Assembly: GCA_031286325.1 (NCBI GenBank)
Contig: JAITUT010000031.1
Location: 1 to 34,146, forward strand
From: Helicobacteraceae bacterium
GTDB taxonomy: Bacteria; Campylobacterota; Campylobacteria; Campylobacterales; SZUA-545
Length of the DNA: 34,146 nucleotides
Direction: 5' to 3'
Below the pieces are notes generated by a model that worked only from the letters and a program-made list of their open reading frames with translations, searched no databases and was not told the DNA's origin. Made by a program: the position numbers and the translations under genes. Shown here one piece after another: positions 4,095-28,596 of the stretch (the stretch's first letter is position 1; every line of letters starts with the position of its first letter).

Positions 4095-4652
4095 TTACTT
4101 TCGCAAAAGATTTTTATCTTTCATTAGATAGAACAATATGCAATCGTAAAGATCGCACGCTTTTCTAGCGTCTTTGCTTGCATTATTATAATCGCCTAAC
4201 CTGTAGTAAACTAATCCGCGACCCTCGTAAGCGTTTCCATAATTCGGGTCAATCTTAATCGCTTTTGTGAAATCCGCAATCGCTTTATTATAATCTCCTA
4301 AATGACGGTAAGCCTTTCCGCGACCATTATAAGCTTCCGCAAAATTCTGGTTAATCTTAATCGCTTTTGTGAAATCCGCAATCGCTTTATTATAGTCATC
4401 TAACTCATAGTAAGCGTCTCCGCGACTACTATAAGCTCCCGCAAAATTTGGGTCAATTTTAATCGCTTTTGTAAACTCACTTACGGCTGTCTGGAAATCT
4501 CCAGCTTCAAGAGCCTTGTTTCCACTATCAATGAAAGTATCAAAGTTATTGTTCGCGCCGCAAACGTTACTGAAAAGCAATACGGTGATTGCGATTAAAA
4601 AAGCGAACTTTCTCGCGGTTAAAAAGAAACGGCGGCTAGGCGTGCTGTGCAT
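4095..4652 (-). CDS. Exported TPR-repeat protein
   Basis: A 185-residue protein with a basic N-terminus (MHSTPSRRFF), one hydrophobic signal or anchor segment (about 13-33), then four 34-residue tetratricopeptide repeats. Each repeat is of the type DYNKAIADFTKAIKIxPNxx. TPR arrays mediate protein-protein contacts, so this is probably a periplasmic or membrane-anchored scaffold; no catalytic motif is visible. AAGGAGATCATA precedes the ATG. The gene is richer in AT than the neighbouring genes. Two adjacent repeats are nearly identical at DNA level, a sign of recent repeat expansion. The first residues resemble those of the pentamer-repeat ORF at 28039-28191, suggesting a family of such proteins in this genome. 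Confidence 0.8.
   Translation of the reverse strand: MHSTPSRRFFLTARKFAFLIAITVLLFSNVCGANNNFDTFIDSGNKALEAGDFQTAVSEFTKAIKIDPNFAGAYSSRGDAYYELDDYNKAIADFTKAIKINQNFAEAYNGRGKAYRHLGDYNKAIADFTKAIKIDPNYGNAYEGRGLVYYRLGDYNNASKDARKACDLYDCILFYLMKDKNLLRK
4251..4394 (-). repeat. Direct repeats inside the TPR gene
   Basis: Forty-two nucleotides are identical between 4251-4292 and 4353-4394, exactly 102 nt (34 codons) apart. This equals one TPR unit and points to recent in-frame duplication. Confidence 0.8.
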
Positions 4653-27152: not shown

Positions 27153-27791
27153 TCAATCGCAAGTTATAGATCCTCCCCTATTCCAATTCTCTAACTCAAC
27201 CCCTGTTAAAGGGACTTTTTGACCGTTCGTTAAATGGCAAACGCCGCTTATCGCTTTGTCCTTTTTGTATGTAACTACGGCAAAAAATTTGCCGTTTTCC
27301 CTGAAAACTTTCGCTTCGCCCTCTTTCGCGCCATTTTTCCACGCGACCTCTTGCTTTAACCTACCGTCGTACCAGTCATAAGTTTTGACAATCCCGTCCG
27401 TAACGCCATTTTTGTATGGTCTCTCTTCTTTAAGTAGCCCGTTATTGTAGTCGTAGAAAGTCTTCTTTACCCCTTCGCGTTTACCGTTTTTTAATGGTAC
27501 GGTGGAGCCCCGCACACCGTCCTTATAGTATAAATGTTGCTCTATTGCCTCGCCGTCAATACAAAGTCTTACGCGCATATCACCGTATTTGTCGACTTCT
27601 TGCACCTTCGCTTTGCCGGGGAGCAAATTACCGTTCATATCCATACACTTGCCGCTCTCCTTATCAAAACGAGCCGTTTTATCCAATATATAAACTTTGT
27701 AATCTGGGTTTTCGTTACTCGCCTTTGGGCTTGAGCACCCCGTCGCCAGCAAAGCCGTCGCCGATAAAATAGCGATCAAAATCCTTTTCAT
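27153..27791 (-). CDS. YwqK-like MORN-repeat lipoprotein
   Basis: A 212-residue exported protein. MKRILIAILSATALLATGCS is a lipoprotein signal with lipobox ATGC. The mature part carries consecutive MORN/YwqK-type units (NGKREGVKKTFYDYNNG, KNGVTDGIVKTYDWYDG, KNGAKEGEAKVFRENG). The family is often labelled 'toxin-antitoxin YwqK antitoxin', but no toxin partner is adjacent and the lipid anchor points to an envelope role. The ATG at 27789-27791 has AAAGGAAG upstream. The frame stays open 26 codons further, through repeat element copy B. Any promoter probably lies beyond that element, perhaps at 28223-28228. Confidence 0.75.
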   Translation of the reverse strand: MKRILIAILSATALLATGCSSPKASNENPDYKVYILDKTARFDKESGKCMDMNGNLLPGKAKVQEVDKYGDMRVRLCIDGEAIEQHLYYKDGVRGSTVPLKNGKREGVKKTFYDYNNGLLKEERPYKNGVTDGIVKTYDWYDGRLKQEVAWKNGAKEGEAKVFRENGKFFAVVTYKKDKAISGVCHLTNGQKVPLTGVELENWNRGGSITCD

Positions 27792-28020
27792 TTGCTTCCT
27801 TTCAAAAACTTCGCAGACGAGCAAAGCTCGTCCTTGCGACCAAAGGCTTTGCCTTTGGAAACCTCGCAAATTGCCGTTCAGCCCTGCTGGACAATTTGCG
27901 CCCGTTGCGCTTAACGCAACGGGAACATAAGGCTTTACGGCGAACGCTTGCTATCGCAAAACGCGAAATCGGGCGAACCGTAGGGGCGAACTGTGTTCGC
28001 CCGTTGCCCCTACATAACAA
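27792..28020 (-). repeat. Short-ORF repeat element, copy B, with stacked hairpins
   Basis: Related to copy A at nuoK-nuoL: on the minus strand it has CCTTATGTTCC, then GGCAATTTGCGAGGTTTCCAAAGGC, then GCGAAGTTTTTGAAAGGAAGC ending at the lipoprotein ATG. It contains a series of perfect hairpins, read on the plus strand: GACGAGC/GCTCGTC, CCAAAGG/CCTTTGG, CCCGTTGCG/CGCAACGGG and the GGGCGAAC/GTTCGCCC palindrome (27984-28002). The ORF is decayed here (an in-frame TAG lies upstream). Confidence 0.6.
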
Positions 28021-28038
28021 AACGACGTGATTTGGGAT

Positions 28039-28191
28039 TTATCTCATATAAGCCCCCTTATATGAGATTGAATTGAAGAGAGAAAAAATCGTTGGTATAA
28101 AGTATAAAGAGCGGCTAGTTGTGCCGCGCCGCGTTACGTTGTGCTGTGCTGTGCTGTGCTGTGCTGTGCTGTGCTGTGCTGTGCTGTGCAT
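28039..28191 (-). CDS. 50-residue ORF opening with pentamer-encoded HSTAQ repeats
   Basis: The ATG at 28189-28191 is followed directly by an (AGCAC) tract that encodes MHSTAQHSTAQHSTAQH, then 33 residues with a weakly hydrophobic patch (LYFIPTIFSLF). TAGG lies about 8 nt upstream and a perfect TATAAT is at 28223-28228. Five is not a multiple of three, so gain or loss of one unit shifts the frame; in the other two frames stops follow at once. The N-terminus resembles MHSTPSRRFF of the exported TPR protein. It is probably the 5' remnant or short relative of such a gene. No downstream TPR coding remains here. Confidence 0.45.
   Translation of the reverse strand: MHSTAQHSTAQHSTAQHNVTRRGTTSRSLYFIPTIFSLFNSISYKGAYMR
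28041..28068. repeat. Perfect 12-bp hairpin
   Basis: ATCTCATATAAG (28041-28052) and CTTATATGAGAT (28057-28068) with a CCCC loop. It overlaps the end of the pentamer-repeat ORF. There is no T-run on either strand, so it is not a standard terminator. Confidence 0.75.
28141..28190. repeat. Pentanucleotide microsatellite (GTGCT)9-GTGCA
   Basis: Ten consecutive 5-nt units, the last with a final A. On the minus strand it is (AGCAC)n immediately after an ATG, the classic layout of a slipped-strand contingency locus. Confidence 0.95.
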
Positions 28192-28596
28192 ATTAAAACC
28201 TAACATTAAAATTTAAACGTTTATTATACCAAAATTTCCATTAAATTAACTGCCGATCCCCGCGCTTATTTGAAAAAATAAACGCTTAAATTCGCGAAAG
28301 AATCAGCGCGGCGTTAGCGGGCTTACAACTTTCGCGGCAACTTCCTGATCGCCGATCGCAAAGAAAATGATAATTCAAGCGGCATAACGGCGATCACAGA
28401 GACGGGCGAACGCAGTTCGCCCCTACTACCGCGATTACGGCGGGAACAATAGGTTTTTTATTTGGGTTTCGTAGCTCTTAAATGCCGCGCGATCACAAAC
28501 AGATCGCGTTATTGCTAGCATTTAGCGAGGGCATTACCCATTGACCCCTCGAAGATCGCGGTTACTTTTCCGTTTCGCTCAAAAGCTCTGATCTTC
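28192..28596. other. Non-coding accessory gap
   Basis: No credible gene. It holds a minus-strand promoter-like TATAAT at 28223-28228, the palindrome GGGCGAAC-GCA-GTTCGCCC at 28404-28422, and a loose inverted repeat CGAGGG/CCCTCG near 28530-28555. Confidence 0.5.
28223..28228 (-). promoter_or_regulatory. Probable -10 element for the pentamer-repeat ORF
   Basis: TATAAT on the minus strand, with TTTTGG directly upstream, lies about 31 nt before the ATG of the pentamer ORF. It could also drive the YwqK-like lipoprotein further down. Confidence 0.45.

Follow-up and report, generated by a model that had tools for sequence, protein, structure and literature searches.

A pentamer-repeat leader predicted to switch exported-protein genes in a Helicobacteraceae bacterium

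The window analysed here is a stretch of 34,146 nucleotides from a Helicobacteraceae bacterium. On its minus strand lies a short open reading frame (ORF) that opens with a five-base repeat and ends in a hairpin. This feature is probably the leader of a phase-variable expression cassette, which would be switched by the length of the leader ORF. The cassette consists of a promoter, a leader ORF opening with a pentamer tract, a 12-bp hairpin, a spacer, and a Shine-Dalgarno (SD) site. Its many copies suggest that a large set of surface proteins in this bacterium is turned ON and OFF at random through the gain and loss of five-base repeats.

The Leader Locus

The features of the locus are listed in Table 1. 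The sequence-only reading described an (AGCAC)n tract directly after an ATG, giving an HSTAQ repeat, with a TATAAT promoter and a ribosome site upstream, and the sequence and its translation agree with this. On the minus strand the locus reads TGGTATAATAAACGTTTAAATTTTAATGTTAGGTTTTAATATG, followed by (GCACA)10. The ORF translates as MHSTAQHSTAQHSTAQHNVTRRGTTSRSLYFIPTIFSLFNSISYKGAYMR, and its stop codon (28041-28039) lies at the 3' foot of the perfect hairpin. Whichever of the three frames is read, the hairpin itself contains a stop codon.

A change of one repeat unit was expected to lead into early stops. Phase analysis gives this result, with 20 amino acids for n+1 and 23 for n-1. These two off-phases stop 55-75 nt before the hairpin.

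The leader ORF ends 247 nt before the start of the lipoprotein gene, and no TATAAT-like site was scored in the spacer between them. The spacers (27820-28020 in the window, and the equivalent regions elsewhere) are strings of small palindromes such as GGGCGAACACAGTTCGCCC and CCAAAGGCAAAGCCTTTGG, which recur throughout the genome in varying combinations. The hairpin also contains a mini-ORF, AUG-AGA-UAA, behind an AAGGNG site; this is probably a by-product of the palindrome.

Table 1. Features of the leader locus and related genes in the window.
Feature	Positions	Strand	Basis
Extended -10 promoter TGG-TATAAT of the cassette	28223..28231	-	sequence; block conserved in alignment
Leader ribosome-binding site TTAGG, 7-8 nt before ATG	28199..28203	-	sequence; TAGG conserved in most copies
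Leader start codon	28191-28189	-	sequence
Leader ORF, 50 codons, long phase at n=10, predicted ON	28039..28191	-	translation, phase analysis
Phase-switch tract, perfect (GCACA)10, codes for HSTAQ repeats	28140..28189	-	sequence; some copies have other units
CTAGCCGC motif, Ser-Arg in the long phase, common to the TPR-gene class	28111..28118	-	sequence comparison
Pyrimidine-rich, G-poor conserved stretch ahead of the hairpin; RNA proposed to be exposed in OFF phases	28066..28088	-	
Perfect 12-bp hairpin ATCTCATATAAG-GGGG-CTTATATGAGAT, about -14 kcal/mol, no U-run after it	28041..28068	-	sequence, folding
Spacer from hairpin to lipoprotein gene, many small palindromes; ends in GTTTTTGAAAGGA ribosome site	27792..28038	-	
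Controlled gene (predicted): MORN/YwqK-like repeat lipoprotein, 212 aa, MKRILIAILSATALLATGC lipobox	27153..27791	-	
TPR exported protein, remnant (GCACA)1.8 start, CTAGCCGCCG	4095..4652	-	sequence

Copies Across the Genome

The genome comprises 2.05 Mb in 96 contigs, and its NuoG fits PRK08493, probably a family of Campylobacterota type. Fifteen sites in the genome carry tracts of four or more GCACA units, and none of 39 relatives does, six congeners among them, so chance can be excluded. The leader had been proposed to belong to a family of repeats that lie near start codons, shift the frame, and are linked to exported proteins, and other members with the same leader were to be sought in the genome. 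Many were found, and together with the phase analysis they support such a family. The pentamer tracts fall into two classes, one at the 5' end of TPR-protein genes and the other in a short leader ORF with a hairpin at its end.

Tracts of the first class are part of the coding sequence (n=19 in C1, 6 in C57, 16 in C88, and 6 in C92). In the assembly all four of these genes are out of frame, and adding or removing a single unit opens frames of 249, 232, >500, and 201 codons, respectively. Three further genes have related signal peptides with the tract absent or reduced to a remnant, and all three are in frame. One of these is the TPR gene of the window, which opens with ATGCACAGCAC...CTAGCCGC and, as had been noticed from the sequence, has its start in common with the window leader. 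Because only a 1.8-unit remnant is left, this gene appears to be fixed ON, and its sequence makes it look like a fixed-ON relative of the tract-in-gene class. The window leader had also been taken for a truncated member of the TPR family. That part was not upheld: the leader is an ORF in its own right, with a separate promoter and a terminal hairpin, and is present in at least 16 copies.

A search with the cassette DNA returned 33 matching pieces, a few of them from the first class. Those of the second class amount to 10 complete copies, 6 of which only the promoter-tract part is assembled, and 5 of which only the hairpin part is, and all of the cuts are contig ends in or near the tract. Together they represent at least 16 loci. 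With up to three mismatches allowed, the promoter core GGTATAATAAACGTTTAAATTTTAATGTTAGGTTTTA has 11 matches in the genome.

In the alignment the order of elements is constant: extended -10, TAGG, ATG, tract, the Ser-Arg motif CTAGCCGC, a G-poor pyrimidine stretch, hairpin, and stop. The exception is C92b, which has a TPR-class promoter. This chimera (C92 14075-14104) joins the promoter and ribosome site of the TPR class at the tract to the body and hairpin of a leader, and recombination at the tract therefore probably occurs.

The hairpin takes the form ATCTCATATAAG-N4-CTTATATGAGAT and has 12 perfect base pairs in all complete copies, with a stability of about -13 to -14 kcal/mol. Changes in its arms in C26, C31, C71, and C60 keep the pairing through G-U. 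The sequences that follow it (TAAATCCC, TAAACCTC, TAACTTCA, and similar ones) contain no U-run.

The hairpin pattern had no match in collections of genome contigs and viral contigs, and an Rfam search of the region gave no family above threshold.

Repeat Units

The unit is GCACA in most copies, GACAC in C45, AACGC in C65, C71, and C79, and GTTCA in C58, C35, and C94. Runs of GCACG are found in C84 and C26b. The peptides encoded by the different units are HSTAQ, TRHDT, NATQR, and FSSVQ. Since the units differ between copies, so does the encoded peptide; the period of five and the flanks are kept. To judge from these sequences, this indicates that the pentamer period, and not the peptide, is what is maintained.

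The number of units per copy ranges from 2 to 24. Two paralogous copies with identical 79-nt downstream flanks have 16 and 8 units. In C84 (6-94), two tracts, (GCACA)7 and (GCACG)10, abut within one cassette, showing how a single base change can create and spread a new unit.

Reading Phases

If the leader is read through the tract, the phase decides where translation ends. None of the ten complete copies has a stop in the Ser-Arg frame between the tract and the 3' arm of the hairpin, and in each of them one or more of the other phases run into a stop 46-131 nt before the hairpin. For this pre-specified frame to be open in all ten, the product over shuffled sequences, calculated from mean open frames, is about 1.5e-4, which is indicative only because the copies are related. 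An open frame of any kind between tract and hairpin is unremarkable against shuffles (product 0.14), and the openness of some frame alone was rejected as proof of coding.

Of the ten complete copies, just two are assembled in the long phase, the window copy (n=10) and C60 (n=2). The assembly most likely captures the window copy in the ON state and most other copies in the OFF state.

The tract might instead act as RNA or DNA in the 5' untranslated region (UTR), through length, stability, or promoter spacing, as 5'-UTR repeats do in other genera. A tract that lies within the transcribed leader and varies from copy to copy would fit this idea. However, in every copy it lies 3' of the promoter and ribosome site, at the ATG or a few codons after it; its period is always five and never three or six; and the phases sort into those that pass through the hairpin and those that stop early. 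An action independent of frame is accordingly improbable.

Genes Downstream of the Cassette

Downstream genes were surveyed for the 15 copies whose 3' side is assembled. In all 15, a gene for an exported protein follows 88-374 nt downstream on the same strand, and several unrelated families are represented. Ten of these genes encode beta-barrel outer membrane proteins (OMPs), three MORN-type lipoproteins (the one in the window among them), one a TPR lipoprotein, and one a protein of another family. The sequence-only reading had also raised the gating of the lipoprotein downstream of the leader. Judged by the placement of the cassette ahead of exported-protein genes, such gating is most likely its main function.

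This placement also bears on the idea that the leader ORFs are decayed N-termini of TPR-type genes, neutral repeats, or a MITE-like element, with no control over the next gene. The ATG-tract-CTAGCCGC start is indeed common to both classes, and the C92b chimera and the recombination it makes probable would suit such an origin. Yet orientation and position before exported-protein genes are constant in 15 of 15 copies, and promoter and hairpin are conserved. No terminal inverted repeats were seen in the cassette, and a DNA search found it in none of 14 family relatives. We regard this origin as unlikely. A mobile repeat of the MITE or insertion type was rejected on the internal hairpin, the only inverted repeat seen, and the fixed orientation.

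The OMPs behind the cassette are paralogous and resemble opacity proteins and OmpA. They match the Pfam family OMP_b-brl, and one is above the cut-off for Opacity (PF02462). A search of the genome with the OMP alignment recovered the same ten and one diverged member, so that all ten close paralogs carry the cassette. The family was not found in six congeners, and in the genome-contig collection the alignment matched only weak Legionella barrels.

The diverged eleventh paralog (C32:2887-3483) has a C16 homopolymer at its 5' end and is out of frame by one base. It represents a poly-C contingency gene of the classical kind, alongside the pentamer system. In C55, the OMP gene has a frameshift in the signal-peptide codons relative to its paralogs, and its normal ATG frame stops early; this is either decay or a further switch.

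The window lipoprotein is labelled MORN/YwqK-like from its repeated KNG motif; a Pfam search with it gave no match. Lipoproteins of this type are expanded in the genome (52 match pieces), and elsewhere in the genus matches come from one other genome only (G005), all of them weak. The inspected MORN paralogs without a cassette have another upstream region and ribosome site in common. The three MORN genes with a cassette have the GAAAGGA ribosome site of the OMP leaders, which suggests that the cassette has replaced their native promoter.

Proposed Mechanism

The model builds on the anatomy of the cassette, its copy number, its constant flanks with changing units, its phases, and its placement before exported-protein genes. 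Its predicted parts are slippage of the tract, translation of the leader, an ON/OFF effect, and a step that involves Rho. An mRNA would start at the extended -10 promoter, and its first ORF would open with the pentamer tract. When units are gained or lost by strand slippage, ribosomes would leave the tract in a different frame. Ribosomes in the ON phase would translate across the G-poor, C/U-rich stretch and on into the hairpin, which they would melt while shielding the RNA. Those in the OFF phases would come off 46-131 nt sooner, leaving the hairpin free to fold and the stretch exposed. Transcription would then end ahead of the surface-protein gene 88-374 nt downstream. The leader peptide itself is probably unimportant, and its length is what would count.

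The hairpin was rejected as an intrinsic terminator, having no U-run after it. For the same reason, Rho would most likely be the terminating factor. C exceeds G before the hairpin by about 8.5 per 40 nt (mean of ten copies), against a background of 0 +/- 4.4; the excess is high in most copies and not in C92b. The sequence after the hairpin is CA-rich. By its base composition, a G-poor, C-rich stretch with CA-rich sequence on its 3' side may suit Rho loading in the OFF phases.

Translational attenuation would place the switch at the ribosome site instead. The pyrimidine stretch of the leader would pair with the GAAAGGA site and block it, and ribosomes in the long phase would set it free. Partition folding does pair the downstream site with the pyrimidine stretch in C60, C55, and C26b, and with ribosomes modelled up to the long stop the mean unpaired probability of the site rises from 0.37 to 0.57. 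The duplex is, however, no stronger than with a dinucleotide-shuffled leader or site (P 0.36-0.98), and the pairing partners differ between copies. SD/anti-SD pairing as the switch was rejected, not being above shuffles, and attenuation is an unlikely account overall.

A broader form of the model is put forward more tentatively. Here, a portable phase-switch cassette, running from promoter to ribosome site, would have been put before unrelated families of surface proteins, forming at least 16 independently randomised loci. Phase would be read through ribosome coverage of a Rho-type termination zone instead of an intrinsic terminator, and the pentamer units would be freely exchangeable.

Significance

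A combinatorial surface is predicted for this bacterium. Annotation pipelines can miss switching of this type because the tract lies outside the gene it would control. With sixteen near-replicate leaders carrying different units, the link from repeat phase through leader translation to downstream transcription can be tested directly.

Comparison with Known Systems

The best-supported reading is that the cassette would work like pil1 of Streptococcus gallolyticus, by analogy with that system. In pil1, GCAGA repeats lie in a leader ORF, and a stem-loop precedes the pilus genes (PMC3894217). The short phase ends 49 bp before the stem-loop, and the long phases reach it (ON). The model is backed by mutants of the start codon and the stem-loop, and terminator activity is lost when its six T are deleted (PMC3894217).

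As in pil1 and pil3, a pentamer tract lies in a leader ORF with its own promoter, ribosome-binding site, and ATG. Like pil1, the cassette has a stem-loop between leader tract and surface gene, and one phase stops well before the stem-loop while another extends to it or past it, as seen here in each of the ten complete copies. Unlike the intrinsic terminator of pil1 with its six T, the hairpin has no U-run, so intrinsic termination is not expected here. The intrinsic-terminator feature was looked for and is absent; the cassette is therefore not an exact member of the pil1 type.

The scale differs as well. Whereas pil1 and pil3 are two pilus operons in a Firmicute, at least 16 loci with several pentamers are found here in a genome that encodes outer membrane proteins. 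The predicted targets are Opa-like OMPs and lipoproteins instead of pilus operons. A literature search found leader-peptide phase variation only for two pilus loci of one streptococcus, and nothing that combines Rho, a leader, and repeats. The logic of pil1 would here be found in a genome with an outer membrane, genome-wide, and apparently over the whole opacity-like OMP repertoire and lipoproteins.

In Neisseria opa, the CTCTT pentamers are part of the OMP gene, within the codons of its signal sequence (PMC13183285). Both systems have many outer-membrane beta-barrel loci with pentamers, switching independently in opa and predicted to do so here. The window tract, in contrast, lies in a separate upstream ORF, and only the TPR-protein class has, in kind, an Opa-like tract within the gene.

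The poly-G/C contingency genes of Campylobacter have mostly homopolymer tracts inside coding frames (PhasomeIt, PMC6321876). Repeat-driven ON/OFF switching of surface-related genes is common to them and, as predicted, to the present system, and the eleventh OMP with its C16 tract resembles them directly. The present system differs from them in its pentamer leader cassettes.
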